Source: Amyelois transitella
Lineage: Eukaryota > Arthropoda > Insecta > Lepidoptera > Pyralidae
NCBI RefSeq assembly: GCF_032362555.1
Contig: NC_083534.1
Span: 3,333,001-3,397,000, forward strand
Direction of reading: 5' to 3'
DNA: 64,000 nt
Shown in pieces: positions 20,232-54,304 of this stretch. The first letter of the stretch is position 1; the number at the start of each line of letters is the position of its first letter. The notes beneath the pieces were generated by a model, which saw only the letters and a list, made by a program, of their open reading frames with translations, ran no database searches and was not told the origin of the DNA. The translations under genes and the position numbers were made by a program.

Positions 20232-22538
20232 CTACGCATTGTCATTGCATTCGGTAATAAGAATTTCCCGCGTGGTACCATTCTCAGCAATAATAACTTC
20301 CGAAGCGGTATTGTTGTGAAGGTTCTGAGGTGACACTTCCGAAGTTTTGTCACTCGAGCAGCGGGCACAAGTGCTGTTTTCAAGATTCGCGTTTATCGCC
20401 ATATTGATCATGTTCATTTGCAATTTCTTGCAAACGTCTGGGGGTAATTCCTCCATCAAACTCATAATATACTCCCCGAATATCTTGAGTTTGTTATTAT
20501 TATTCCCCTCCTTTTTCTTCTTCTCCACAGGCTCGTCTTCTGAAGAAGTACTGACTCGTCTCCGCCTCTTCTTCCTCGGTTTCGTACTGGTCCTCGGACT
20601 GTCGGCTTGCCATTGTAATTTCTCCTTCTTATCCCTTTTAACATCAAAATCATCAAGGTACACTACTTCTGTATAGGTGTCTTGTTCCTCATCGTCATTT
20701 TGAGCGTCTAAATCCTGTAAGAAAAAGCCATTATCACTAAACTATAACGGGTTCACTATTAATAATGATACAAGTTTTTATTTACATACATATAGTTCCG
20801 TCTAGATACTTTGTGGGATAGACAGAGCACACAGTCTCGAAAAGACAAGCTACGTTCAGCTATATGACTTGTTGCTGAAGAATGAAGGTTGCTAGCCCAT
20901 CGACTACAAGAGGAACATACATACACATACAATCACGTCTATATCCTTTGCGGGGTAGACAGAGCCAACAGTCTTGAAAAGACTGATAGGCAACGTTCAG
21001 CTGTTTGGTTTAATGATAGAACTGAGATTCAAATAGTGACAGGTTGCTAGTCCATCGTCTCAAAAAGCACCCCAAGTTTATAAGCCTATCCCTTAGTCGT
21101 CTTTTGCGACAACCATGGGAAAGATCCAGTAATTCTGTTTTGAAGTGCCGGTAACCAGAGCTTTTTTTTAAGCAGATCGCCTCCAATACAACCCAAGTGG
21201 AAGACATTGAGAGAGTCGTCTGATATGATGATGACCTACCTGAACGCCTTTCAATAATTTCGGGTGCTTCTCAATATGTTTCATCAGGGCTTGTTCTCTG
21301 TTGGAGACGGTGGCTTTACAAATGCGACACATGGCCCATTCACTACTCTCCTGGTCGAAGAAGGAACTGACCTCGAAAACTTTCGTGTCGTCATCGGATT
21401 CAGCATCTGTGGACAAATTGAAATGTATTCATTTTGCCGTAGACAGAGTTAAGGTCTATCGTCCATTAAAAAACTGGCTAGTGTAGTCTAAATGTCAAAA
21501 TGGGTGTATATTTGCCCGAAGCAATGGATGAGTAGGCCAATTCATTCATATAATCATGTCTATTTCCCTTGCCGGGTAAACAGAGCCAGCGGTCTTGAAG
21601 ACTAATAGGCCACGTTCAGCTGATAGGCTTAATTATATAGAATTTAGATTCAAATAGTGACAGGTTGCTAGCCCATCGCCTAAAAGAGAATCACATGTTT
21701 ATAAATTTATCCCTTAGTCGCCTTATACGACATCCACGGGAAAATTATGGAGTGATCCTATTCTAAAGTGCTGGAAACACACACCACTTTGAAATGTGGC
21801 CTTTCAGTCTTTTCAACACTGCTGGCTCTGTGTACTCCGCAACGGATGTAGACGTGAATATAACTACTAACTATGTAGGTAGGTATAAGGATTTGTGAAC
21901 GCAACATTTTCATTACGATTTTCTATCGTCAAACTGACATATGTCATTCTCTCTGTGTGCCGCGCTTTTGAATACGTTTTTCACTTCGCAGGATTACATA
22001 CTTATTATTAATTTCTACAAGTATAGTCTTTGGTAAGACCTCGCGAAAACTTTTATTTTTTACTAAATGAACCTATTTGGATGTCCTACAAACTTGAAAA
22101 CTCTATTGACAGATCTTACAAACATTTTTAATTAAAAAAACTGAAAATTATTTATACTTAAGTAGCCAAGCGTTAAAAATAATAAAAATATTTTTTAATT
22201 TCTTATTCTTGACGTAGTAATTATAACAAAGCCCTGGCAATCCTCGCATCTTTTCGTTAGTTGAATTGTTTCACCTTACCTGATGATGTTACGGCTCCTG
22301 CTGTTGATTCTCTAGTAGCTGACTTCTCCAACTGAGCGTTAGAGCCGTCCAGCTCTAAGCTCCGCGCCATAAAATCAGCATATGCCCGTTTGTGTTTAAC
22401 TTTCAAATGTTGTTTTAAATTACTAATTGTAGTTTTGTAAGAAATGTTTTTTTGACAATAAAGGCATTCTGCAATTTTATTCTCTATATCTTTGGATTTA
22501 TCAAAATAGTCCCAATATTTACTATTTTTAGGCGGCAT
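20232..22538 (-). CDS. BED-A: BED zinc-finger / BESS-like protein
   Basis: Three exons, minus strand: 22280-22538, 21240-21406, 20232-20714; phases fit and give 302 aa. Exon 1: BED finger (WDYF, C-x2-C, SYKTTISNLKQH, H-x4-H). Exon 2: a second finger (SEWAMCRIC, then KHIEKH) in acidic surroundings. Exon 3: acidic start, basic KKRRRR patch (nuclear signal), then FGEYIMSLMEELPPDV, which resembles a BESS motif. Architecture is like Drosophila BEAF-32 (BED + BESS), a chromatin boundary factor; that function is inference only. Tandem paralogue of BED-B (26608-30653), in the same orientation. Exon 2 is almost identical to that of BED-B although exons 1 and 3 are not. A transposon ends within 8 bp of the stop. 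An AATAAA on this strand lies at 20114-20119, inside the transposon. Confidence 0.85.
20921..21160 (-). repeat. 255-bp TATG-tailed repeat (family A)
   Basis: Reverse copy in BED-A intron 2, preceded by a partial copy at about 20790-20900. Another reverse copy lies at 21545-21790 in intron 1. Confidence 0.7.
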
Positions 22539-23000
22539 TATGTTAGTTTTAAATAATATAAATGTAAGTTCGATATTATTTCACAAAATTTACGTACATT
22601 TACACCACCAACGTAAAATACACAATAATACAAAACAGCGAAGCTATAAACATAACACCCGATAACAGAAAAGCGCGACTTACAAAGCGATACACATTAG
22701 CTCGTTGACAAAATTAAGCGTACTGACTAGTTTTCCTGCTATTTTAAACGAACAACGCCCTCGGACCACGCGTAACGCGAATATAACATTGGGCGAAAAT
22801 TTGCGACGTTGCCGATCTTGTGTTGGTGTATAATAGCTTAACTTTGTATCTTTGTCTAACCCATGCCATCGTATTTATGAGTGAAAGAGAAAGTAGATGA
22901 AGGGACGCAACAGCGCATTGCCTGCCGTGTCAGTTTGTGTCCCCGATACGATATTCGATCAAAACTAACCGGCGCGGCGCGGCGGTGTTATAATTATTAG
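22539..23000 (-). promoter_or_regulatory. BED-A upstream region, duplicated upstream of BED-B
   Basis: 22690-22960 is alignable with 30775-30990 upstream of BED-B: TTAAGCGTAC, TTTAAACGAACAACGC, ATGAGTGAAAGAGAAAG and GACGCAACAGCGCATTGCC occur in the same order. This suggests the promoter or 5' UTR was duplicated with the gene. No TATA box is obvious. Confidence 0.5.
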
Positions 23001-24271
23001 GTAGCAGAGTAAATATTACTAATATTTTTTATTATCAATATATTCGAATATATTTAATTAATTAAATAGCTTTGTATTAATCTAATCTATTATTATGAAA
23101 ATAGAACAGCACTATCTATCATAGCTTGTGTAAACTAGTAACTAAGATTCTATGAAGTGATTTGTGGATGATGACACAAGATGTCTCTATCTAATCTTAA
23201 AATGAAATTGTGTTTTATGTCGAAGAACTTAGAGTACATATTAGTAGTTTAGTATGTTTTGTTAAAGTGTACCTATCAACTTTGGAACATAGCTAACATT
23301 TTTGATAATTATTATTATTGATAAGATTAAGTATTTAGATCTTTATTGTTAAAGATAATTTATTGTTTTATTTTAAGGTGTTAATATGTTTAGAAAAATA
23401 GGTACTGTGTAACACTCATTAGCGTAGGTACACCGTTATAAATGACACACGTTTATTGCAAAACTAGTTAAGGTACAGTTGTCTTGGCGTCGCCTTTTAC
23501 GACATCCAGGGGAAAGAGATAGAGTGGTCCTTTTCTTTTTTTCTATTGGTGCCGGAATCCGCACTCTAGTCGAGCTTATAAGACCCCTTCTTTTCGTCGG
23601 GGGTTAAACAGAAACCTTTTGGCGTAAAAGTTGTTTTTCTTATCAGAGGTGTTATGGTTGCACAGCTGAATTTTACGTAATTATTTATCGTAGATACGTG
23701 CGAACCGCAATAATAATTGAAAAGTGTTTTGTGTAATATAAAAATTACGACTACTGGCATACTACGTAATATGTATGTACTAGCTGTGCCCGCGACTTCG
23801 TTCGCGTAGAATAGTTACTTTGGGCATCAATGAAACCCTCAAGGATGAATAATTTTCCCCGTTTTTTTTTACATATTCCATTATTTATTCGCTCCTTGAT
23901 ATTATTAGTAAAGATTATAAAGCCGAAGAGTTTGTTTGTTTGAACGCGCTAATCTCAGGAACTACTGGTTCAAATTGAAAAATTCTTTTTCTGTTGAATA
24001 GCACACTTATTATAAAAAGCTTTGTTTGATTTTGGTTTGGTTGAAATAAAATAATAGTTTATTATGTAACTTATTTAATAAAATGAGTACACCTTGTGCT
24101 TCCTTGTTGAATTGATACTAGTCTGACACTATAAACATACTCCTCTTTTCACTAAGTCAAATCAAAGGAAATTATTATAAACTGAGAATTCTCCTTTTAC
24201 TCGATGGGCTAATAACCTGTCACTCAGCGAATCTTAATTTATTTTTAGTTGGCTCTAGGTACATACATATA

Positions 24272-25828
24272 CAGCCTTGGCCAAAAGTATTAGGCACCCC
24301 CAACTTTTATTAAAATAATGAAGTAAAACTACTTTTATTTTCTATATTTATTTATTTCTTAAAAATTAGGTTAATATAAACAAGAAAAGCTTAAAATCTA
24401 GTAGGTTCACCTTTAGATTTTATTACTGCACTGATTTGAGCCGGCACGCTGCGTACTAACTTTGAACACTCATTCCTAGAAATACTGATCCATTCTTAAA
24501 CTAATGCATTTTTAATGCACTTTTTGATGAAATACTATGCTCCTTGATCCTCTGCTTTAGAATACCCCAAAGATGCTCAATTGGGTTGAGGTCTAGAGAC
24601 TGCATCGGCCAATCCAGCACCTCAATATTATTTTCAACAAACCAACGCATCACAGTCCCTGACTTATGACACGGTGCGTTGTCTTGCTGAAAAATGACGC
24701 CGTCTAGGTTGGTGTCACCGTAAATGCTTATTAGCGATGGCATAAGAGCAGTTTCGAGTACTTGGATGTACTTTTCACTGTTCATACGACCTTCACAAAC
24801 AAACATTTCACCAACGCCATCGGCAGTCATGCAACCCCAGATCATAATGCTACTTCTGCCGTGCTTGCCAATATGTACAACGCAATCTGCATGATATTCT
24901 TCGCCCATACGTCGCCTCACAAAGGTCACAGCCGGTGTTACAAAAACCTGGTTGAGGAAAAAACAATACCTATTAGGAAATTAATTATAATTTGTAATAT
25001 TAGAGTGGAACTAAAAAGGAAACGTTCTTAATTATAAGAAAACTACTAGAATTGACTCACCTTAAAGTTAGATTCATCAGACCACACCACATTAACCCAA
25101 TCTTCCTCTGTGAAATGTTGGTACTGTAAAGCCCATTCTAGGCGCTTCTTTTAATTAGTTTCTGACAGCCAAGGCTTCTTCCTGGCTTTGCACCCTTTTA
25201 GGCCTGCTTCCCCGAGTCTTCTTCTGACGGTTCGCGAACTTATTGACTTTCCGGCATCATCTGACAAGGCAGCAGCTAGCTCGGATGAAGTTTTTTTCCT
25301 ATTTTTCAGTGACTCTCGAACCAATTTTCTACCTTCGCGTTCCGTAGTCACACGTTTTCGGCCTGCTCGTGGTTTGTCGTCGTGGGTACCGGTCTCAGTA
25401 AACCGTTTGATGGCAGACTGTACAGCGCAACGCGAACATTTCACCAACATGGCGATTTCTTTCTGGGATCGCCCTTGTTCGTGTAAAAGTTCAATTTTCA
25501 CTCGATTTTCAATAGTAATATTACTTTTTTTGGGCATTTTAGAATGATTATGATATCAATTTCTTGCTCAATAGAAAAAATAGCTTGTTTACTAGTTTAA
25601 GTCTAGAACACAACTGGTCAAATAATGACTGATGAGATTACAAGAAACCGAAATCTTTTGTTTTTGGTGATCAGGGTTTTTTTTTGACCTCAAAATATGC
25701 CGCCTACTGTGCCAGGTAACGTTTTATAACCCTGACAATACATTAAAGATAAGTATTTATTCATTGTTTCAATAGTAAACATGCATTGTGTATATTTATG
25801 GGGTGCCTAATACTTTTGGCCAAGGCTG
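24272..25828 (-). mobile_element. Tc1-like (DD34E) transposon
   Basis: Perfect ~29-bp terminal inverted repeats (CAGCCTTGGCCAAAAGTATT... at 24272 and its complement ending 25828), flanked by TA on each side. It is inserted into a family A repeat: that repeat is cut at 24270 and resumes at 25831. Encodes a damaged transposase on the minus strand. Confidence 0.92.
24391..25537 (-). pseudogene. Tc1-like transposase, disrupted
   Basis: N-terminal half (25151-25537) has the paired-type helix-turn-helix of Tc1 transposases. An in-frame TAA follows SETN, but the same frame goes on (KKRLEWALQYQ). The first catalytic D is in WSDES. A 113-bp intron-like gap (24948-25060, GTGAGT...CAG) interrupts FK|VF. 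The second D is in FQQDNAP and the E in NPIEHLW with 34 residues between, so DD34E. Near 24501-24530 the frame shifts before the C-terminus (IKSKGEPTRF then TAA at 24391). One nonsense codon and one frameshift make this copy inactive; its perfect TIRs suggest a fairly young insertion. Confidence 0.88.
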
Positions 25829-25829
25829 T

Positions 25830-26607
25830 ATATAATCACGTCTTTATCCCTCGCGGGGTAGACGGAGCCAACAGTCTTCAAAAGACTGATAGGCCACGTT
25901 CGGCTTAATGTTAGAATCGTCCTAAAAGTAGAACTTATAAACCTATCCTTAAGTCGCCTTTTACTACATCCATTGGAAAAAAAATGGAGTGATTCTTATC
26001 TTCTTTCTATTGGTGCCGGAAATCACACTCTCTTAGTTAATATTATTATTGTGGAAAGTGATGGACTTTTTACACGGGATAATTTTTGAAAACAGCTTCA
26101 ATGTGGGGCACGGACGTGACGTCACCAAGACGAGCCAAGCGATGCGCAAGAGTGCGTAAGGAGACCTAAAAAGGTCTCGTCATGTCGTACCTACATTTCT
26201 GCCGTGCGGTTCCCGGCACCAATAGAAAAAAGAATAAGACCACAATATCTCTTATATATATTCTATCATTAAGCCAAACAGCTGAACGTGGCCTATCATT
26301 CTTTTCAAGACTGTTGGCTCTGTCTACCCCGTAAGGGATAAAGACGAGATCATATGTATGTATGTATGTACCTATATCTCTTTCCCATGCATGTCGTAAA
26401 AGGTGACTATGGGATAGGCTTATAAACTCGAGATTTTTATTTTAGGCGACCGGCTAACAACCAGTCACTCTATATGAATCTCAATTCTATCATTAAGCCA
26501 AACAGCTCAACGTGGCCTATCAGTATTTTCAAGACTGTTCTCTGTATCCCCCGCAAGGGATATAGACGTGATAGTATGTATGTATATTTCTGCATGGTGC
26601 TGTGCTC
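25830..26607. other. Repeat stretch between Tc1 and BED-B
   Basis: Contains the other half of the family A copy split by Tc1 (25831-26040, -) and forward family A copies at 26205-26380 and 26385-26590. The last one ends 18 bp before the BED-B stop codon, so little native 3' UTR remains. Confidence 0.6.
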
Positions 26608-29600
26608 CTACGCGTTATCACTGCATTCATCAACTTGAATTTCCTGCACTACACCGTTCTCAGTTAGAATAACTTCCGGTGCAACATTGTCCTGCGTCAT
26701 CACTTCCGAAGCCTTATCACTGGAACTGCCGTTTTCAAGGTACGCGTTCATCACCACATTGATGATGTTCATTTGCGTTCTTTTGCACACGTCCGGTGGT
26801 AATTTTTCTATCAAACACATTATGTACTCTCCGAATATCGTGATCTCACTCTTCTTTTCACACTTCTTTTTCTTCTTCTCCACATGCTCGTCTTCCGATG
26901 AAGAACTGACTCGTCTCCGCCTCTTCTTCCATGGTTTCTTACTGGTCCTCGATGTGTCGGCTTGCCATTGTGATTTCTCCTTTTTGTCCCGTTTACCATC
27001 AAAGTCATCAAGGTACACCACTTCTGTGTAGGTCTCTTGTTCATCATCATCGTTTTGAGCGTCTGAATCCTGGAAGAAATTGTCGTCATTAACACGTCAC
27101 TATTGATAGTGATACTATTCCTGCAGCTTCACCCGTATTCAATATCCATCTTGTTCCCATGGATGTCGTAAAAGGCGACTAAGGGATAGACTCATAAACT
27201 TGGGACTCTTCTTTTAGGCGATGGGCTAGCAACCTGTCACTATTTGAATCTTAATTCTATCATTGAGCCAAAAAGCTGAACGTGGCCTGTTAGCCTTTTC
27301 AAGACTGTTGGCTCTGTCTACCCCGCAAGGTATATAGACGTGACTATATGTATGTATGTAGTGTCTAGGATAAAATGCCAACGATTGATCTGCGGTTAAT
27401 AAAAATTATACATATGTACAACTTATACATACGTCATGTCACATATAATAACGTTTATACCTATTGCAGGGTAGACAGAGCCAGCAGTCTTGAAAGACTG
27501 ACAGGCCACGTTCAGCTGTTAGGCTCAATGATAGAATTGAGATTCAAATAGTGACAGGTTCACAAGAAGAATACTAAGTTTATAAGCCCTTAGTCGCCTT
27601 TTACGATATCCATGGTAAAGAAATGGAGTGGACATAAACAACATTTCATCTAAATCGGTCTAGCTTAGACGTAAAAGCTTCTGATAGGCAACTGTTTGTG
27701 ATACACAGTATGTGGCAGTTACTACTCTTGCTTTGCAGACTGTTATAGTCAATGAAGGGAAATTCTTTAAAACCTCCAGGCGATGGGCTGCCAAATCGTC
27801 TTTCATACGAATACAACTCCTTCCGAGTCTTGTTACTAATGGCTCTGTCGATCTCGTAAAGGAAAAAAAGTGATATACAAGATGACTGGTAAATCGCGTT
27901 GCATATTGAAAGAGGGTACTCCGTACCTGATTCTTGTTCGAAATAATTAGAAAAAAATAATGGGTTTCCCTTTTCCCTACATTATCCGACAAAAACAATA
28001 AATTAAACAAAAAAAAATGAAGTATGGAAATTCACAAACTCAAAGGACGAGTCATTAACGCGGTGCCCAAATATTCTTAAACTTTGTGCAATGTCTTAAT
28101 AACTTTTTAAGTACATAGTGAGTAAAATACTGGCTAGTTTAATTTTTTTTTTTTGGAATGATTTATTTAAGAATTTTGGAAGATTTTCTTATAGGCGACG
28201 GGCTAGCAACCTGTCACTATTTGAATCTCAATTCTTCTTGTATCATCAAGCCAAAAAACTGAACGTGGCCTATCAGTCTATTCAAGACTGTTGGCTCTGT
28301 CTACCCCGCAAGGGATATAGACGTGACTATATGTATGTATATTTTATAAAGTTAAGCGTGTTCATGATTTACTATGTCCTTAAATATGAAACGCGATTCA
28401 CCAGTCGTGAGATAGCCAACTTACCTGTACGCCTTTCAATAATTTCGGGTGCTTCTCAATATGTTTCATCAGGGCTTGTTCTCTGTTGGAGACGGTGGCT
28501 TTACAAATGCGACACATGGCCCATTCACTACTCTCCTGGTCGAAGAAGGAACTGACCTCGAAAACTTTCGTGTCGTCATCGGAATCAGCATCTGTGGACA
28601 AATTAAAAAATTAAATGAAAAAGAATTTTTTTTAACGACCAATGGGCAAGCCAGGTAAAACAAACGGATTTGGTTTGAAAATTACTTTATTTTGCACAGA
28701 ATAGACTGATTAAACAATTAAAACTAACGCAGAGAAAAATTTTGGCGCGCTTAGTTCTTTACGCGCGGACCAATACAGAGTTCCAAAATTTAAAATTGGC
28801 GCGGGCGTGTTTACCACAGACAACTTCGGATACATTTTAAAACCTTATTCAATAGGCTATTTGACTGTAGTAAAAATATACATTTCTTTTATGTCATCAG
28901 TCTTAATATTATTTTTTTGGAGCGATTTGTAATAACGCGAGATAAAAATATTGCATTATTTAAACAAAAACCGTCTCAGAAAATTAGGTTTTTATATGCA
29001 GCTGTCACGTGACTAAAAACGAACGTGATTGGCTATTTCTATTATGACGTCAATTATCCATAAACATACTGTGGATCGTACCGTTCCTTAGTGTTCGCTA
29101 TTGTTTTTCAAGATTTTATAAGTGTTTGATCGCTCAGGTTTACTCAGATAACATAGGTATTTAATAATGGAAACCAATTCCGCGAAAGCTGACAGTCGAA
29201 ACCAACCAAAAGTGGACGCAATAATGGTTGAAAGAAGAAATCTGGATTGTCTTCTTCAAAGACAATCCAGATTTCTATGCTGCCGAACTGAGGAATGTGA
29301 AAACATCAATGTAAGTATATCTTGGTAACCACTGATCTTAGATCATGATCTGATACCACTTCTTGCGAATATTCAAATCCATCGGCATAGAAAAAAAATA
29401 AGTTCGTAGTTTCGTAGGAGATTTTATTTTTGTATTAGTGCATTGAGGAACTGCACAACATTTATAGGAACTCATTTTAATAATTTTCACACATATGACG
29501 TGGCACAAGTTAAATAAAACAAGAGGAAATCAAAACTTTTCGAAACACCAACAAGCTTTGTATGATATTTACACGAAATTTACGTCACTGCATGCTATGG

Positions 29601-30653
29601 CCGCCATATTGCTAAAAGTCGCGTTTTGGCGGCATATTTGAATATTTCATTTTCTTTTTCGATTTTTTAATGAAATAGCTGTAATAAAGGCAGAAAAGTA
29701 TTTTTGTAGGGCTCCTTATAAACAAATAAATACCCTTAGATAGTTTTTAGAACTTTGTCAAATAGCCTATTGCAAATCCATCCAAACGTCAACTCCATAA
29801 CTCATCATTTTTTTCCATATTTTGGTATAACTCCACCTCCTGCCGAGACCTGTTCTTGGACATATCACATCTATTCATATGCCCGGGAACGGGTTTTGGC
29901 AGGAGAACAATTATTATTTAACATCAACTTCTCCAAAGGGCCTCTATGTGTTGGATTTATATCCCCACGCAAGCCTCTCAATAACCCGTGAAATCAATTG
30001 CAAAACCCGTGATTGCAAAAATTTCTATACGCATAAACTTAGGTATCTATTTGTTTGGAAATAAATAATTTTTCAGACAGTTTAATAAATAAACATTTAT
30101 GATGTATACATATAATCCGGGTTAAAAATATACCTACTACATTATGGATCGTCGATTTTTAGGAAGAGGGTGGTGGGAGCCTATGTGGAACTTCCTTTAA
30201 CACTCATTCTCTTTGATGTAGGACACTGGATCACATTAAAAAAAAAAAAAACACGGAACAACGGGTTTATTCCTTTTCAAAAATTATTTAGAAAAATACG
30301 TGGTAAATGAAATCCTCGGCTCTTCATATTCGTCAATTTTTTTTATATCAATAAACCACCACCATCGCCACTGCTTTACCTGATGATGCTGATACTGCTC
30401 CGGCCGTTGATTTTCTAGTAGTTATAGCGCGCTTGTTCAACTCGGCGCTAGAACCGACCAACCCTGAGCTACGCGCCAAAAACTCATCATATACTCTTTT
30501 GTGTTTTATTTTCAAATGCTGTTTCAAATTAGTTATTGTAGTTTTGTAAGAAATGTATTTGTGACAAGAATTGCATTCTGCAATTCTATTCTCCAAATCT
30601 ATATTTTTATTAAAATAGTCCCACAATATATAATTACTATTTTTAGACGCCAT
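26608..30653 (-). CDS. BED-B: BED zinc-finger / BESS-like protein, paralogue of BED-A
   Basis: Three exons: 30380-30653, 28425-28591, 26608-27069; phases match BED-A exactly and give 300 aa. Exon 1 carries the BED finger (ILWDYFNKN, C-x2-C, SYKTTITNLKQH, H-x4-H), about two-thirds identical to BED-A. Exon 2 (167 nt) differs from BED-A at only two bases, one synonymous and one D/E change. Exon 3 has the acidic DSDAQNDDDEQ start, a KKRRRR basic patch and FGEYIMCLIEKLPPDV (BESS-like). The introns are filled with family A repeats and an inactivated 0.92-kb DNA element. BED-B is head-to-head with BED-C, with 1.77 kb between the start codons. A nuclear DNA-binding role is inferred from the domains. 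Confidence 0.85.
28850..29772 (+). mobile_element. 0.92-kb DNA transposon relic with AT target duplication (ISL2EU-like?)
   Basis: Terminal inverted repeats AGGCTATTTGAC (inside CAATAGGCTATTTGAC at 28850-28865 and its complement at 29757-29772), each flanked by AT. A central fragment has an ATG at 29167 and a short coding-like piece DFYAAELRNVKTSM before a donor-like GTAAGT at 29311. The element at 46264-47193 is of the same length and carries DFYFAEFSNVNTF at the equivalent place. Superfamily is inferred from the 2-bp AT duplication and this motif. Located in BED-B intron 1. Confidence 0.6.
29236..29276. repeat. Perfect 18-bp inverted repeat, 5-nt loop
   Basis: AGAAATCTGGATTGTCTT (29236-29253) and its exact complement (29259-29276) inside the transposon fragment. 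It breaks the transposase-like frame, so it looks like a local inverted duplication. Confidence 0.8.
29773..30130 (+). other. Unassigned stretch with open frames
   Basis: Two overlapping plus-strand frames (29755-29991 and 29879-30064) in BED-B intron 1. One contains PPPAETCSWTYHIYSY, the other YVLDLYPHASLSI. It has a coding feel but no family I recognise; possibly an old mobile element. Confidence 0.25.
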
Positions 30654-30774
30654 AAGTTACGTTTATTTAAACGTAAATTCAATAATACACAAATTTAACG
30701 TTTATTATACAACACCGCACCACCGCAAAATATACAACAAAAATAGCGCGGCTTACAAGCAACACGCGTTATCG

Positions 30775-30990
30775 TTGACAGAATTAAGCGTACCCACTGA
30801 CTAATGCTTTTTTAAACGAACAACGCTTCGACCGAGTATCAAATGCATGGAGTATTACGACGTTGCCGTTCTTGTGTCGCTATAAACACTTCAGTATCTT
30901 TGTCTACCTCATCTTATCTATCTATGAGTGAAAGAGAAAGAATACGAAGTGACGCAACAGCGCATTGCCGTGTCAGTCGGTGTCACCGAC
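30775..30990 (-). promoter_or_regulatory. BED-B upstream region, copy of the BED-A upstream region
   Basis: Shares ordered blocks with 22690-22960 (TTAAGCGTACC, TTTAAACGAACAACGC, CGACGTTGCCG, ATGAGTGAAAGAGAAAG, GACGCAACAGCGCATTGCC). Probably the duplicated promoter or 5' UTR of BED-B. Confidence 0.5.
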
Positions 30991-31479
30991 CGTTACTCGC
31001 TCAATATTAACGCGTAAAAACTTAACGTTATTTTTACGCGCCAATTTTGACCGAGCGCACTACATGGTGCACAACGTTTTTTTTTAAAGAAGCACGCTTA
31101 ATATAATGCTTTTTAATTAAACGATATCATCAAATCAAACGCTCTAGTTCTGTTGCTGTTTTTAACTTTAACTTATTCCGTGTGGTGGTAGAGAATAGGA
31201 TCTCTATATCTCTCCCCCAGATGTAATAAAAGGCGACTAAGGGATAGGCGTATGAACATGCGAGCTATCAACCGGTCACAATATGAATAAATTAATAAAG
31301 CAGAACTTTTAGCCTTTGCAAGACTGTTGGCTCTGTTTACCACGTAACGTATAAAGAAGTGATTATGTTATGCAACACTGAAATATACACAATACCGTAG
31401 GAATGTAACGATAAATGTATAACTACCAAAGCTAGAGCGCGCCTACTAGGCTAGTGCATACCATTGAAAATAAATAAAT

Positions 31480-32418: not shown

Positions 32419-35400
32419 ATGAAAATGGCGTCGACCGGGTACGTACTAGAATTGGTACTAGCTTTGAAATACAAATACCTGTTAGAAAACCTAATACTGT
32501 ACTAAATACTTATTCTACAATAACTTTGTTTACCGTGCCTTTCTGTCATATGATACTGAATTCCAAGTTTTTTGATTTAAGGAATCCAATTCTTACAATG
32601 TTTTATTATTAGTAATATCCCAGGCTTGCTTTTTGTTATTTAGTGAATAATAATAATGTGCTTTCTTTTGTGGTTTATTATGTGTAAACTGAATAAAATT
32701 GAATTAATTTGGGCAGAGGCGAGTCTGATAAGGAGAAAAGCAAAGAATTTAATGATGAGGAATCCAATAATGAGGAATATGTGGAATACCTGGATGAGAA
32801 ACCGTGAGTAATTTTTTCATTTATTACAATAACCTCAAGTAAGTCAAGACAATAACCTCAAAATTAATCATAAAGTTTGTTGTTTCATAAACTTATCATC
32901 GTACCTCCTTTTACGAAGCTTAATTTAACGACAAACTCTAAGTCGATTATTTACTTAGGTAAATGTATAAATTTCTACAATAAATTTATTTTTGGTACAA
33001 TGGACTTCACAAACAACAATACACAGGAAGGTTTCTGCATTACTTTTGTATTTATTTATTTATTGAAACTAGGTATGCACGTAAAATGTACAACAAGTGG
33101 ACTTAATGCCACAAGGCATTCTCTGCCATTCAAACCTTTGGAGCAAACTGAGGTGGATGTAGGGGTGGTGTGGTATTATAAATATACAAAGTACCTTTCT
33201 TAAAGGTATTTCTTTTTCTGGCCCACTGTAATTACAAACTTTTATAATTACTGATAAATTGCTTTATTGTATGTAAAAAAAGAAACTTGTTCAAATTGTA
33301 GAAATTTTCAAAGACGTGCAAATGTTAGTTTGGCATGGAAATATTTCGATCTGAAGGATCAAGAGCAGAAGATCGCCACATGCAAGATATGTGCAAACGA
33401 GCTATCATATCGTTCTGTGAGCAACCTGACTAAGCATGTACGAAGGAGGCATGGATTGGGCCTGTCAACGTCCACACAAGAGCAGTTAGTATTTCTTACA
33501 TATTTGAACATAATAAAGTTTATTTGAACAGCCATCTGGGCCTGCTGGAAGAGATTTCTTTTGATATAAGCTAAAATTTTGTTTCTTGTGTTTATCAGTC
33601 TTGATGTTTTCTGTGTACATATATCAGTAAATAAATAAATCCATCTGATTACATATATAAGTGTTAATTTTTATATAAACGGGACATGGCAAACAGGTTA
33701 AAATCTGACTGTGGTCATGTATGAATGACTTTTAAATAATTAATACATGCTATTTCGCTTGTCAGTAAAATGGAATACCTTATTTTAATCAGGTATTTTT
33801 GATACATAACCACAAAAAGTCAAAAACATCATGAATCCTCCAAATGAATTCCATTATAATATTAAATAAATTTTGACAGAGCCAATTCTGATACGGAGAA
33901 CATAAAGTTAGATGATGAGGAATCAAACAGCGAAGAATTTGTGGAATACCTGGAGGAGAAACCGTGAGTAATGTTGTACATATATCCCTTGGTTGAGGTT
34001 ATAATCTTGGTTCCAACAACAACGTGATGTTGCTCTGTATACCCCGCAAGGGATATAGACGTGACCATAAAACAGTCTTGAAAAGACTGAATGGCCACAT
34101 TCAGTTATTAGGCTTAATGATAGAATTGAGATTCAAATAGTGAGAGATTGCTAGCCCATTGCCAGAAGAATCCCAAGTTTGTAAGCCTATCCCTTAGACG
34201 ACTTTTACGACATCCATGGGAAAGAGATGGAGTGGTCCAATTCTTTTTTTATTGGTGCCGGAAACCACACGGCAATTTGTATAACTAAACTTTTTTAATA
34301 GATAGTGTGATTGTAGAGGTAGGTTTATACATATAAGTGCTACTTGTACAAAACTGGAGCGGGTTGCAAGTGATGTATCAAATGTTATGTGCAACAATAA
34401 AGAGTTTTAAAATAAACAAAAAAGTTATATTCACTTGTTCATCGCATTAGTTATATTGCAGAGAGGAGTCAAGACGTCCGAACGTAAGTTTGGCATGGAA
34501 ATATTTCGAAGTGAAGGACAGGGAGCTGAGGATAGCTACATGCAACATATGTTCAAGGGAGTTATCATACAGTTCTGTGAGCAACCTGACTAAGCACGTG
34601 CGAAGGAAGCACGGATTGGGCCTGTCAATGTCCACACAAGACCAGTTGGTATTTTTGTTTGAATCAAATCAAAATATATTTAATGAATAAGTGATTGAAC
34701 GGTTATGTGCCGTGTGGTTCCCGGCACCAATAGAGAAAAGGTCATCTCTTACCTATGGATGAAGTATAAGGCGACTCAGGGATAGGCTTGTGCACTTGGG
34801 ATTCTTCTTTTAGGCTACGGGCTAACAACCTGTCACTTTATATGTATTTCAATTCTATTGGTAAACTAAACAGCTGAACGTGGCCTATCAGTATTTTCAA
34901 GCCTGTTGGCTTTGTCTACCCCGTAAGGGATAAAGACGTGATTATATGTATGTATGGTTAAATTTTAATTATTTCAGCATATCCTACTAATATTATAATG
35001 CGAAAGTTTGTCAGGTGAGTATGTCAGGATGTCAGTATGGATGTTTATTACTCTTTCGCGCATAAACTACTGAACCGATTACGACGAAATTTGGTATGTA
35101 GGTAGCTGAAGACCCAGAATAACATATAGGCTACTTTTTATCCCGGAGTTCCCGCGGGATTGATAGGGTTTCCACGCGGACGAAGTCGCGGGCGGCCTCT
35201 AGTTTCCTATAATGAGTTACACATCCAGTTGAGCTTGAATATGCAGGTTTCTTCACAATGTTTATTAGGGTAAATTTTTATACAGGGTGACATTTAAAAC
35301 AACTGCATCCTTTTAAACATAGACTATACCCATGCTTCTGAGCCGTTTGAACCTAAACCTCATCATTTTCACATTTAAAAAACCCTCAAAAACTACGTCA

Positions 35401-37968
35401 CACGCTTTATTAAAGACCAATACTACAAAAAGAAATTAAAACTAAACATGTAAATAAATGTCTGAAAAATAAATTATTTTTCTAGTATCAAGATCAAGTA
35501 AAGTACAGAGTTGTTGAGATCGCTCAGCTCAATGAATTGTGTCGTTGACCTCTGAATCTTACGGCCGGGGTGATATTACGTATTTAGGATCGTGGATTTT
35601 TATTCGTACTTTCTGAAATATGAACCAATATTTTTCTTTCAACGTTTTTAAATATCCTTTAGATGAGTACACTTAACAGTTAAATTTATGCAGTTGAATT
35701 AAAAGTCACCCTGTATATGTACAATAATATGTTTACATCTTGTCAAAACTGTCATGTCAACTTTAGGCCAAGGAATCACACCCGGGAGGGTATGACCAGG
35801 TCGTCAATATGGCATTTCTGCAAAAAAATCGACCACATGAAAAAGATAGCTATGTGTCTTGTATGCAAGAAGAAGCTGTCTTACAAGACTATCAATAACC
35901 TACGGAGGCATGTGTTGAACCAGCATCCCGATTTAATTGATCATGTGAGTTTTCAATGTAAATTTTCATTATTATTTTTGTAAAAACAATAAACGCCGTG
36001 TGGTTCCCGGTACCAACTAAAAAAAAAAAAAAAAGAATAGGACCACTCCATCTCGTTCCCATGGATGTCGTAAAAGGCGACTAAGGGATAAGCTTATAAA
36101 CTTAGGATTCTTCTTTTAGGCGATGGGCTAGCAACCTGTCACTATTTGGGTCTCAATTCTATCACTAAGCCAAACTCTGAGCGTGGCCTATCAGTCTTTT
36201 CAAGACTGGTGGCTCTGTCTATCCCGCTAGGGATAAAGACGTGATTATATGTATGTACAATAAACGACGGCCTGTGTGGCGCAGCGTTAGTACGCTTGTC
36301 TGTGACACCGGAGGTCCCAGGTTCGAATCCCGGACAGGGAACTTTTTCTGATTGAACAAACTAACTTTTTCTAATTGGCCTGGGTTTTGGATGTTTATCT
36401 ATATAAGTATTTATTATATATAATAGTATCGTGTTGAGTTTGTATCTCGTAACACAAGTCTCGACCTTACTTACTCAATTTGTGTTATTTGTCCCGTATA
36501 AGGAATATTTATTAAAAAAAAAATTGTTTCCATAAATTGATATGTATCAATTACATATCAATTTATCGAAACAATTTTTTTTTAAATAGACAGTAACTAC
36601 TTAATGAAATATACATACATACATTGTATTTTGTTTGTAATGTGTGCACTTTTTCGCATCACAACATTAAAGTTTTTCTGTTTGGTCAGCTGGTAGACTG
36701 GTAGAGAATGCCATATACAGCTTTAAGTCCGCCCTTTTAACTTTGTGTTTTATTTTTTCGACCATGTATTGTGTGAATCGATCGATTCTCTCATTCAGTT
36801 TGATGTGAATTGAAGATGATTTTACAGGATAAAAGGCTGATGATCTCCAGTGACGGGAATCTGTACGAGATAGATGATAAAGTGGAACATCTCGTCAACG
36901 ATGATGAACAGGTATTATGGAATTATATAAAAAGAATTATTCACAAACAAATTAATAAATAAATCTTATAAGTGTGTAGAATGTAAAATTTGTTAGTAAC
37001 CAAAATGCGAATTATGTTTCTTTAATTAGTTTCAGACGCTTGCGCAATATTTATATCAGCCTCAAAATGGCGATTATTTTTAGCGGGAAAATTGCGGATA
37101 AGTCTATAGTCGAGTTGAATTAAAGAGATCTGTCTGCCCCGTAAGGGATGACCGTACATCTTTCCAGTTGCCATGATCTCTGCATATTTCTTTCGCTTCA
37201 TCCACATTCATAAGTCTTCACGCAAACGCGTCAGTTTCGCTTGACTTGACTTGACCTCCAGAATAAATAATAAAATTTTATCTTTTCTACATTATTTCGA
37301 GGATATGAACTTACTTCGAGGCTTACTCAATCAGTGTAATTTGTCCCGTATATATATTCGCGACAAATTACACAGATTGATTGAGTTGATATATAAATAC
37401 ATATATATATTATTTTACCCGAAACCGCCGAGCTTGCATGAAGAGAGTTATGAATGTGGATGAAGCAAAGGAAGTGTGCAGGGATCGTGGCAAGTGGAAA
37501 GAGGTAGTCTCTGCCTACCCCTCCGGGAAAGAGGCGTGATTTTATGTATGTATTATTTTACAGCCCGTTATAGATATCGACTCCGTGTATATAGAAGATG
37601 TGGACACCGAAGACGTATTAGAAAGCAAAGGGCTGAGGAACAAAAGAAGAAAAATAACATTACACGACACCAAGAACAGTGACGACACTAGTGCAGACGA
37701 GATCACGTATCGGGAGCGATACGCGCGTAAAAAGAGCGATACTTTGGATCAGTTCGGCAAATACCTGGTATCCATTATGAGGCAATTACCAGACAACATA
37801 TCGAATAAGTTGCAATTGGATTTTGTGAAGCAAGCCATGACCGCGCGATTGGCGAGCGATACGCAAACAATTGATACAGATAACAGTTATCAAATAACGA
37901 TAGCTAATAACGGGCCGCGGAATAACAGCGATCATCAGTACGTTGTAGAAGAACATGTTGTTGAGTAG
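32419..37968 (+). CDS. BED-C: three-finger BED / BESS-like protein
   Basis: Eight exons join in frame to 407 aa: 32419-32438, 32717-32803, 33302-33484, 33880-33963, 34462-34644, 35767-35944, 36828-36911, 37564-37968. The first exon encodes only MKMAST plus part of a Gly codon. BED fingers lie on exons 3, 5 and 6 (AWKYF...C-x2-C...SNLTKH-x4-H twice; IWHFC...NNLRRH-x4-H). Exons 2 and 4 encode acidic spacers ending EYLDEKP and EYLEEKP. Exons 2+3 and 4+5 are a tandem duplication with a 1160-bp period. The last exon has a basic NKRRK patch and FGKYLVSIMRQLPDNI, a BESS-like segment shared with BED-A and BED-B. AATAAA begins 3 bp after the stop. Donors of exons 3 and 5 are weak (GTTAGT, GTTGGT) but required by phase. 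Likely a nuclear chromatin or promoter-binding factor. Confidence 0.83.
34070..34273 (-). repeat. 255-bp TATG-tailed repeat (family A)
   Basis: Reverse copy in BED-C intron 4; the tail end is scrambled with a short forward fragment at 34030-34065. Confidence 0.65.
34707..35202 (+). repeat. Family A repeat followed by Helitron-like family D
   Basis: Family A forward copy 34707-34966, then Helitron-like element 34982-35202 (TCCTACTAATATTATAA to CTCTAG, flanked by A and T). BED-C intron 5. Confidence 0.7.
35995..36258 (+). repeat. 255-bp TATG-tailed repeat (family A), full length
   Basis: Runs from GCCGTGTGGTTCCCGG to GTGATTATATGTATG in BED-C intron 6. Confidence 0.75.
36268..36520 (+). repeat. 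tRNA-derived SINE, best copy
   Basis: The head GTGTGGCGCAGCGTTAGTAC with GGTTCGAATCC at about 36320 resembles tRNA A and B boxes (Pol III promoter). The body includes ATTGGCCTGGGTTTTGGATG and the end TTTGTCCCGTATAAGG. Other copies: 320-560, 3930-4138, 6925-7160, 31480-31690 and 38290-38475, all reversed. Confidence 0.75.
36515..36583. repeat. 32-bp inverted repeat (hairpin) in BED-C intron 6
   Basis: Arms 36515-36546 and 36552-36583 pair with one mismatch around a 5-nt loop (TCAAT); stem ends in A9/T9. Directly follows the SINE. Confidence 0.8.
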
Positions 37969-40900
37969 ATAATAAATTAATTTTATGCATATTTTGTTTT
38001 TTTATTATTACACAAACTAGTTATCTAGTTATAGGGGTACCAATTACCCAGTTTAACATACATACATATCACGTCTATATCCCTTGCGGGGTAGACAGAG
38101 CCAACAGTCTTGAAAAGATTAATAGGCCACATTGAGCTATTTGGCTTAATGATAGAATTGAGATTCAAATAGTGACAGGTTGCTAGCCCGTCGCCTAAAA
38201 GGAGAATCCCAAGTTTATAAGCCTATCCCTTAGTCGCCTTTTACAACATCCATGGGAAAGAGATGGAGTGGTCCTATAATTTTTTTGTTTGTGCCTAACT
38301 TAAACAGTTTAAGTTAGCCTCAATTATGTTCGAGACTTGTGTAATGAGAAATTTGTAATAAATGCTTATATAGGTAAACATGCAAAATCCAGGTCAATTA
38401 GAAAGAGTTCAGAGCTTCGAACTTGGGACCTCGTGTGTTACAGATAAGCGCTCTACCGTTGCGCCACGGAGGCACTATAACTCGACGGGAACCATCCATA
38501 CGGCATTTTATAATATGTAGTATCCAGCTGTAGGTGGTCTTTCAGTCTTGGGGACTGTAGTCTCTGGCTACCCCGAATGGGATAGATTCGTGACAATATG
38601 TATGTATGCAGATTCAACAATAATCGAAATTTGTTAACGGTACCTACAATATAATTTTGTGTAAATATTGGTTTAAGAAACACCATAGCCCCACTTAATT
38701 GTATTATTGCCCCCTCCACTTCTTCCCGCGCTGACAGATCGTTAAAGTAAATAAAGGAAAAAACTTTTTAATTCAAATCCTAGGATGTTCATTAGTGCCA
38801 TGTCTAGACCTTGTTTAAATAGCTTATAGAATTAGATTAATATAAAAAATAAAATAAAATACGTAATTATTTGATAACTAATTATCATTTTCTATTTGCT
38901 GTTTTTAGGTTTTTTTTTCTTTAGACAAGCTATTTAGATTTTTATATGTGAGAATATGAAATTACTCTTTAGATGTTTATTAGTTAACTTTTTGTTGTTG
39001 ACTGTATGTTCTCCGAAGAAAATAAACTAAAAAAATAAATGGATTCTTCTTTTATGTGATGGACTGGCAACCTGTCACTATGTCTTATTTCTTCTCGTCT
39101 TTTAAAAACTGATAGCTCTGTCTGCCCCGAAAGGGTTTGCTATTCAAGATAAAGTACTTCAATGCAACAAACCCAAATTGTTTTTCCTCCATATTTTTCC
39201 TTGGTATTGTATTCAGTAACTAACTATATAAATGTACGTATACTTAGGTAGATACGTGCGTACGTGACCACGCGCAGCATTGAGTTGATAAACAACATTG
39301 TATATAGTATACAGTAGACATAGCCGCGTAGGGATGCCAAGATTTTTTACATAAAATCTAAACTAATATTCTAAAGAGACTGTCGCTTTGCTCGCGACTT
39401 TGTCCGCGTGGAATAGTTATTTTGGGCATCATTGAAGCCCCCAATGACAAATAATTTTCCTCGTTTTTTTTTCACATTTTCTTTTATTTCTTCGCTCCTA
39501 ATAGTTGCAGCGTGATGTTATATAGCCTAAAGCCTTCCGCGATAAATGGTCTATTCAACACAAAAAGAATTTTCAATTCGAACCGTAGTTCCTGAGATTA
39601 GCGCGTTCAAACAAACAAACTCTTCAGCTTTATAATATTAATATAGATTATTTTGTAGGTATCCTACCGCAATTCTAAACGTGGCATAATTATGTTGTGT
39701 TTGAGAATATCGACTGAATTATGTAATGGTTTTGAGAGATAAAGTCGTCATATTAATATGTCTGTGCGCGTGAATAAAATAACGTACCTACTTCTGACAA
39801 CGTTTGATCTTTTGCACCCGTAACTCGCCGCCGTTATCGTAAACTAGTGCTAGTTTTGTGCGGGGCTTTTGCTTAATTGGCAATATCCAGCAATGAAGCC
39901 TGTCTCACTCCTCAGTTTTAAATTTGTCTCTGTGAAAAATATACTTTCCTTTTTATAATATTAATACGGATAATTTGTTAAAATTGCCATTACCAAGTGG
40001 CCATCCTAACGCCCTAATAAGAAAGTTTAATTCAAGACTCGTTAGCTCATCTCGAAATAATTCCATAAGTGTCCGCCCACCGAGATTAAAATATACCCGT
40101 GTTTACGTGGCTGGAAATAGTTCTCGTGACTCACTTCTCGTTTTAGAGTGCTTATGGAAAGTAAAACAGTATAAGTACTTACATAAAATTTTCATAGAAC
40201 GGTCATTCATATCTATCAAAACTTATAAGTACTCTTTTAACAATCTTTTGCATAGATTTTACAAAAAGAAAACCATTATTAATATTGATCACAGTTACTG
40301 TTAAAAATACGAAAAGAACACGTTTGTTGTATGTGGATCCCCCTTAACGTATTTTTTTAATGATTTTCAGTAATTGTTGTTATAGCAGCAACAGAAATAC
40401 CTACATGATAAGTGAAAATTTCAGCTTTTTAGCTATCACGTAAGTCAGGGTTTTACACAAAGAGAATCCCGTCACCCGTCTATGATTTGAATTGCATATT
40501 GGATCAATGGTTACACATTCAGTGGCCTGAATGTGCAGGTTTCCTCACGATATTTTCGCTCAGCAATGTTAACTGCGTAAATACTTAGGTACCTACATAT
40601 AAACTACTTAGTTATGATGAAAAATATTGTTGATAAAAATGAGGTGTTGATGAATCATTGCAAGATCATAGCTGACGTAAAATGATGAATCAAGTTGGGG
40701 ATTCGAGAATTTTCAAAGAAAAAAAATCTAACAGTCAGTTAAATATGTACCTACTACATATTTAATTCTACAATTCATATGGTAACAATCTGGTAACATA
40801 TTCAATTGATGGCTAAGCTCAGGTTTTGAGACATGTGCTCGAAATAAATTAGTGGGAACTGACAAGTCACACGTTTCTATCCTTAAACGTGTAGTCAGTG

Positions 40901-52380: not shown

Positions 52381-52842
52381 CTCAAATTCTTTCAAAGCTC
52401 TGTTTGAGCCCAAAAATCTTGACTGAAAGGCTTTAGATCATGTGTTTTATCCATATCTATAGCTAAAATAAAACACCTTCCTAAGGATAACTTCCGTTTT
52501 GAAAGCCCGCGTTGTTTTTTTATTTAAAATTTTATTGCACAAAGAAATGTACAAAATTCGGACTACCGTTTGGCATTCTCTACCTCTCTAAATGAGATTT
52601 TTGCAATATATGTATACCTATGGGTTTTGTACCTACCTACTCGCACCACGCGAAAACTATTTAGTACCTATCCGATTTGTTCAGGTTTGGTCGAACTTAA
52701 AACTAGTTTACAAAAAGTTTTTCCCCACCCCTCTATGGGCAAACGGGTGGTCAGATATTGAGATTGTCAGTTAATTATTACCGCAAACGAAGTCGCGGGC
52801 AACAGCTAGACCTAACTAAATTTAAAAATAAAATACACTTAC

Positions 52843-53296
52843 CATATAGAATAGACAGATCTGTTTCAGCGAGTTCCTCCTCTTCATCACGATCAGGAAA
52901 TAATTTTGCGAATACAGCCGGGTGTTTGCGAGACAAATGCGAGCTTAAATTACACGAAGTACTTTTATAAGAATAATCATTTCCGCAATAATTGCAGGTC
53001 GCCACTTTGTCGTCATCGTTGACGGTGAAATGATTGAATATTTTGGGTTTAAGACAACGCTTGGGCTTTGATGGTTTTTTATTTCTTCTTGAATCAGTTT
53101 CGTCCAGGGAGATTTTATGTACTTTTAATAAATGCGTTTTTAAGTTATGCGTAGTTGATATGTAACTGTAAACGTTATTACAAATAACACATTGAGCTCG
53201 CCTCCCGTTGTCATTACTAATGCATTTGTTGAAATAGTCCCACAAGGTCTTCTTCTCTGTGTTTTCACTTTTCTCGTCTTCCATACTTTCCTCCAT
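52843..53296 (-). CDS. BED-D: two BED fingers, first exon (3' partial)
   Basis: Open from MEESMEDEK (ATG at 53296; an in-frame ATG six codons upstream is possible) to a strong donor G|GTAAGTG at 52842. Two BED fingers: LWDYFNKC..C-x2-C..HNLKTH-x4-H and IFNHF..C-x2-C..CNLSSH-x4-H, separated by a basic RRNKKPSKPKRC linker. The end is acidic (DEEEELAETD). Related to BED-A/B/C. No downstream exon with phase 1 was found between 50.2 and 52.8 kb. The acceptor of MADF-BESS exon 2 (48274) has the right phase, but that would remove half the MADF domain, so I do not favour it. Read-through would add 22 codons, ending in repeat sequence. Confidence 0.65.
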
Positions 53297-54304
53297 AGCA
53301 CACACAAACCACAATAACGATAAAAGTTTATATTAATAAGAAAACGACCGAAACGATCTTATTTATATTATGTTATCGTTTTGTTAGGTTATAAAACGGA
53401 CGCGTAGAAACGAGCGAGGTTATTTAACTAAGAAGATGGCGACGGGCGACTTCACTAATGTTATTATGTTGCCAACTGTCTCTGGTAAAAATCCGCTGTA
53501 ATTTTATTATGACAAAGTGCTCTCAAAACTTGGAACAATAAAATAAAACCATTGCGACCTCTCCGTGTGAAGCTGGACCAGAAATATAGCAGACCTTTTC
53601 AATAACGGCGTAACACAAGGAAAGGAGTAAAAAACGATACTAACTACTTAATAGCGTTAGTATTAGCTTACTTTTTTTTAATGAATATTGTAAACTAAAA
53701 AACTAATATTGTAAAATTAATTAGCTAAGAAAGAAGAAAGTTCAAGAAGTGCCATATTGTAAACTGAATAATGGCATGGTTTGCTATAATCATATTATAA
53801 AATTTTTTGGATTTCATTTAGACGTAGGTGTTTTTTTTTTATTCTCAATTCAATCATTAAAACTCTTTTATTGTCAAATTCTCCTTATAATCGTTGGCGC
53901 TAGTTTTTGGCAATCTGGCGCCTTCTAAAAACAGATTTAGCGCTTTGTCATTTATGATAGTTGGCAATATGGTTTATGGGTCAACGAATGAAGACGCTCG
54001 CTACGCTAACGCCCAATAGAATGTAATCACTACGTTATACTAACGCCTAGTGCTGTGCAGTACATTGCTGTTTGGTCGCTCAAAATCAATACGATCACGG
54101 TAGCACCAAAGAGAAAAGACGACAAAAAAGAAGTTTCCCTGATAACGGAGGTCAGTTGGCAGTCACTCCACTTTGTTACCTTTTTACTAATTTGATGAAT
54201 CGTGATCAGTGTGTGTAAATACAGGACGCAACAAATAACGCAACGCAATAAAATAAAACAAATTCCATTAGTTAAGTAGATACAATATGTATTTAAAAAT
54301 AAGA
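53297..54304. other. Gap between BED-D and the transferrin gene
   Basis: 53300-53480 is probably the BED-D promoter or 5' UTR (GAGCGAGG, GATGGCGACGGGCGAC). The rest is A/T-rich, with no gene or strong repeat recognised. Confidence 0.45.

Follow-up and report, generated by a model that had tools for sequence, protein, structure and literature searches.

Near-identity of a single exon between diverged tandem BED genes of Amyelois transitella points to probable gene conversion

Two tandem BED genes of Amyelois transitella, here called A and B, share a second exon that is nearly identical between them, whereas their first and third exons have diverged to about two-thirds protein identity. We consider interlocus gene conversion between old tandem duplicates to be the probable cause of this similarity. 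All positions refer to the window, the whole stretch of 64,000 nucleotides of contig NC_083534.1 that was analysed.

Both genes are read from the minus strand; B runs from 30653 to 26608 and A, downstream of it, from 22538 to 20232. The three-exon models were predicted from sequence alone. The exons measure 259, 167 and 483 nt in A and 274, 167 and 462 nt in B, all introns are GT-AG, and the spliced frame is open throughout, giving 302 residues for A and 300 for B. Exon 1 (A, 22280-22538; B, 30380-30653) encodes the first BED finger; it is defined by splice sites, open frame and Pfam in A, where it also holds the start codon, and by Pfam zf-BED in B. Exon 2 (A, 21240-21406; B, 28425-28591) encodes a second, degenerate BED/C2H2-like finger, and exon 3 (A, 20232-20714; B, 26608-27069; both including the stop codon) encodes a charged linker and a BESS-like tail in A. 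Intron 1 spans 21407-22279 in A and 28592-30379 in B, and intron 2 spans 20715-21239 and 27070-28424, respectively. The two copies of exon 2 are 7.2 kb apart on the same strand. Between the genes lies a Tc1/mariner-like transposon (24270-25830), with inverted ends recognised by eye and minus-strand ORFs matching HTH_Tnp_Tc3_2 (25151-25555, 1.5e-16) and DDE_3 (24501-24980, 2.1e-16).

Pfam placed zf-BED at residues 6-50 of protein A (6.6e-17), the best stretch being in exon 1, and in gene B exon 1 (E 4.7e-11). The scores of whole protein A (61.7 bits) and gene B exon 1 (43 bits) exceeded the PF02892 cut-off of 20.6. By contrast, exon 2 alone stayed under the curated cut-offs (15.6 bits against 20.6 for zf-BED; 18.4 against 27 for zf-C2H2_4), and a second zf-BED stretch in whole protein A was counted only at the lax limit of E <= 10. 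The predicted product of exon 2 is thus only Cys2-His2 finger-like, below the Pfam family cut-offs. No PDB sequence matched exon 2 at E <= 10, and its structure predicted from the single sequence (mean pLDDT 72, pTM 0.35, helix at residues 27-46) was too weak for use. Gene A exon 3 matched no Pfam family at E <= 1, a BESS motif match included; its tail is one that we take to resemble the BESS motif. Proteins A and B probably act in the nucleus as DNA-binding factors, each carrying two zinc fingers and a BESS-like tail.

The sequence-only reading had reported two differences between the copies of exon 2, one of them synonymous, and the alignment confirmed this (2 of 167 nt). The silent difference is at 21243 (GTT in A, GTA in B) and the replacement at 21399 (GAA in A, GAT in B; Glu/Asp), so that 55 of the 56 encoded residues agree. 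These are the fourth nucleotide from the 3' end and the eighth from the 5' end of the exon, and the inner 155 nt (A, 21244-21398; B, 28429-28583) are identical. Two sites placed at random in the exon would rarely be so widely spaced (p 0.005). Across all 295 aligned codons the genes differ at 141 nucleotides, just 2 of them in exon 2. The 155-nt run is the longest in 885 aligned coding columns, and a run of 154 was reached in none of 100,000 permutations (largest, 86); identical runs outside exon 2 reach 26 nt at most.

The reported divergence of the outer exons was likewise confirmed, with protein identities of 68.6% in exon 1 (86 aligned codons) and 69.3% in exon 3 (153 codons). The proposed per-exon comparison of dS was borne out: NG86 estimates were 0.033 in exon 2 (dN 0.007, 56 codons) versus 0.38 in exon 1 (dN 0.17, 86 codons) and 0.60 in exon 3 (dN 0.17, 153 codons), with 0.51 for exons 1 and 3 combined. 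Among codons that keep their amino acid and are able to change silently, 1 of 52 differed in exon 2 and 37 of 160 elsewhere (Fisher p 1.1e-4). The contrast was weak at four-fold sites by themselves (1/17 versus 16/47, p 0.02). In a silent-only test (212 codons, 38 differing), the longest run without a difference was 53 codons, a length reached by 14 of 100,000 permutations. Furthermore, every one of the 109 overlapping 52-codon blocks outside exon 2 held at least 9 silent differences. When silent rates were allowed to vary strongly between blocks (sd 0.12), the p value of the exon 2 count became 0.024 instead of 2e-5. GC3 was 0.57 in exon 2, 0.30-0.34 in exon 1 and 0.50-0.51 in exon 3; exon 2 being little above exon 3, there is no clear signature of GC bias. 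We also observed that the first 36 codons of exon 1 (22431-22538 and 30540-30653) have a pS of 0.09, versus 0.40 in the rest of that exon (Fisher p 0.036 from rounded counts), which perhaps reflects an older conversion patch or chance.

A control was provided by an apparent BED gene on the plus strand next to the pair (32700-37970), which contains a tandemly duplicated linker-plus-BED exon pair (33312-33485 and 34472-34645). These exons retain 78% protein identity, with a dS of 0.43, silent differences in 10 of 44 codons and identical runs of at most 25 nt. Because this pair of BED exons reached such a dS, protein constraint alone does not give the identity of exon 2. The tail of the same gene is similar to exon 3 of A. 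Elsewhere in the window, a minus-strand ORF (52778-53332) encodes two BED fingers within one exon.

The introns were said to diverge within a few bases of the splice sites. This holds at the donor, where agreement ends after 3 nt; at the acceptor it extends for 13 nt, slightly more than claimed, and intron 1 of A is homologous to that of B only in its last 13-17 nt. With the 13 nt included, the acceptor side was equalled by 1 of 500 shuffles over 60 nt and by 6 of 500 over 100 nt; once they were left out, 184 and 475 of 500 shuffles, respectively, were as good, and on the donor side past 3 nt the count was 147 of 500 at 60 nt. Beyond these 13 and 3 nt, local alignment detected no intron homology adjoining exon 2 apart from SINE-like repeats. 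The stronger matches between the introns of A and B are such repeats, and the remaining matches are weak (E 0.007 or more). The repeat, about 215 nt long, gave 55 blastn matches within the window (E <= 1e-5), many partial and in both orientations, and occurs in both introns of A and in intron 2 of B. Exchange mediated by SINEs was considered and rejected: the repeats nearest to exon 2 on the intron 2 side (A, 20916-21130; B, 28193-28340) are oppositely oriented, and intron 1 of B has no repeat match, leaving no collinear flank for exchange. Diverged homology is retained in the roughly 60 nt upstream of exon 3 (1 of 1000 shuffles as good). The 5' flanks (A, 22539-22969; B, 30654-31011; minus strand) also align: of 338 aligned columns, 278 match and 60 do not, and a further 113 columns contain gaps. 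They are better preserved than the introns and contain a perfect 19-nt block (22904-22922 and 30951-30969), of which the window has no further copy even when 3 mismatches are allowed. A and B are thus an old tandem duplicate with largely rebuilt introns.

No third copy of exon 2 that might have served as donor was found among the best-scoring candidates of DNA and protein searches (E <= 10) of the 327-Mb, 33-contig assembly. Each search gave two matches, A and B themselves. For exon 3, the best-scoring candidates yielded A, B and a single weak hit, located in the neighbouring gene. Of 168 BED candidates in the genome, the best 150 were scored and gave at least 66 matches. Exon 2 has one weak counterpart in the window, a BED exon of the next gene (35849-35947; 36%, E 0.068), which is so diverged that it could neither have been the donor nor serve to polarise the changes. 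One scan of viral contigs with protein A gave 5 pattern matches, and one scan of prokaryotic genome contigs with exon 2 gave 123; none of either was confirmed.

Conversion confined to the exon, as proposed earlier, agrees with the evidence from this single genome, namely the dS contrast, the silent run, the sharp edges, the lack of another copy among the candidates scored and the diverged control. "Confined" does not imply targeting, since the introns adjoining exon 2 are no longer detectably homologous. The identity stops at the exon edge because A/B homology stops there, and for the same reason the tract could hardly be extended. The core has sharp limits at the two differing sites, 21243 and 21399, with dS at 0.38 and 0.60 in the exons outside, and differences remaining at the exon edges are as expected for unconverted ends. 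A and B were duplicated in tandem long ago, dS being about 0.5 in their outer exons taken together. We propose that repeat insertions and indels then rebuilt the introns, leaving exon 2 as an island of homology. Conversion would have overwritten at least the inner 155 nt in one gene with the copy of the other, the two edge differences having either escaped the event or arisen after it. The exon may have stayed similar enough for recombination, perhaps repeatedly, with the help of purifying selection on the second finger. The template was presumably genomic; a cDNA template is not favoured, since the 13 intron nucleotides before the acceptor also match, although splice-site constraint could explain them.

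One silent change in 31 exon 2 sites sets a 95% upper limit of 0.18 on the silent proportion (about 0.2 corrected). Compared with the dS of 0.51 for exons 1 and 3, this limit places the last event within roughly the most recent two fifths of the time since duplication; the point estimate is about 6%. In PMC3924818, experimental mean tract lengths are given as 200-300 bp, so the 155-nt core is somewhat below these means, yet of the same order. The same paper puts the segment for efficient recombination in yeast at about 200 bp and adds that shorter matches can convert. Runs outside exon 2 do not exceed 26 nt, far under that figure, and a single late event would therefore be inefficient on so diverged an island. 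Since perfect runs of only about 25 nt would make such an event hard to start, recurrent conversion would fit the data better, and it eases this difficulty because exon 2 never drifts far. We thus tentatively entertain, at rather long odds, that homogenisation of exon 2 has recurred for as long as the pair has existed, the exon being a conversion island of about 170 bp that sustains itself although its flanks are not homologous. The reason would be a need for both proteins to retain a common second finger even as the first finger and the tail diverge.

Nucleotide-level constraint, from a regulatory element, splicing signals or an overlapping transcript, could together with protein constraint have kept exon 2 identical since the duplication. 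The 55/56 protein identity and the 13 identical intron nucleotides at the acceptor are compatible with it, as is the fact that conversion is read here from the paralogues of a single genome. Read antisense, exon 2 has one frame that is open save for its first codon, which alone is no evidence of a gene. Such constraint would, however, have to hold nearly all 31 silent sites, when about 30% of silent sites differ in exon 1 and about 41% in exon 3, and both changes fall at the exon edges, where splicing constraint should peak. RNA secondary structure was rejected as its source, the fold being unremarkable (z +0.88; equalled or bettered by 163 of 200 shuffles). We therefore judge this explanation unlikely.

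Less probable still is that exon 2 was lost or replaced in one gene and then re-inserted by a non-homologous template switch or exon transposition. Abrupt edges of identity and unalignable adjoining introns would follow naturally from such an event. Against it, the copy is found at the corresponding position and in the same phase in A and B; its splice sites work, yet the intron immediately beyond them is unshared, and a template switch would be expected to bring donor intron beyond the 13 and 3 nt. An artefact of assembly or polishing, in which one exon was corrected with reads of the other, seems very improbable: short near-identical exons mismap easily, but polishing would require them to be near-identical beforehand, two differences survive, and the window sits over 3.3 Mb inside its contig, in an assembly of 33 contigs and 327 Mb.

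Gene conversion between A and B, our preferred reading, resembles described cases. According to a review citing a personal communication (PMC3924837), concerted evolution of yeast whole-genome duplicates can be limited to coding sequence, with purifying selection that keeps the coding part convertible as the likely cause. As in those yeast duplicates, a coding stretch of A and B is homogenised where non-coding homology is gone; unlike them, A and B are an animal tandem pair in which one exon of three is affected and exons 1 and 3 have diverged. By analogy, the purifying-selection account would fit the pair. Mammalian TLR1/TLR6 (PMC2077338) are also tandem paralogues with one functional region homogenised by conversion and the remainder diverging, although that region covers 300 residues in nine species, compared with 155 nt in one genome here. 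Similarly, PMC2720389, on mosaic concerted evolution, describes concerted and divergent exons within single pairs (BMP8A/B, DDX19A/B and TUBG1/2); those tracts include introns, a shared intron being required by that search, whereas the introns of A and B are unshared. Literature searches, covering mainly titles and the starts of abstracts, returned no description of this pair, and the one directed at Lepidoptera paralogues gave no title or opening of an abstract on that subject.

Gene conversion of this kind is already known, and the pair would add another case. Dating from exon 2 alone would misdate the duplication of A and B. The pair offers a compact natural test of how short an isolated stretch of homology can be and still undergo ectopic conversion in insect DNA. 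It likewise lets one ask whether conversion holds a single protein module in common while the remainder of the two genes drifts apart.
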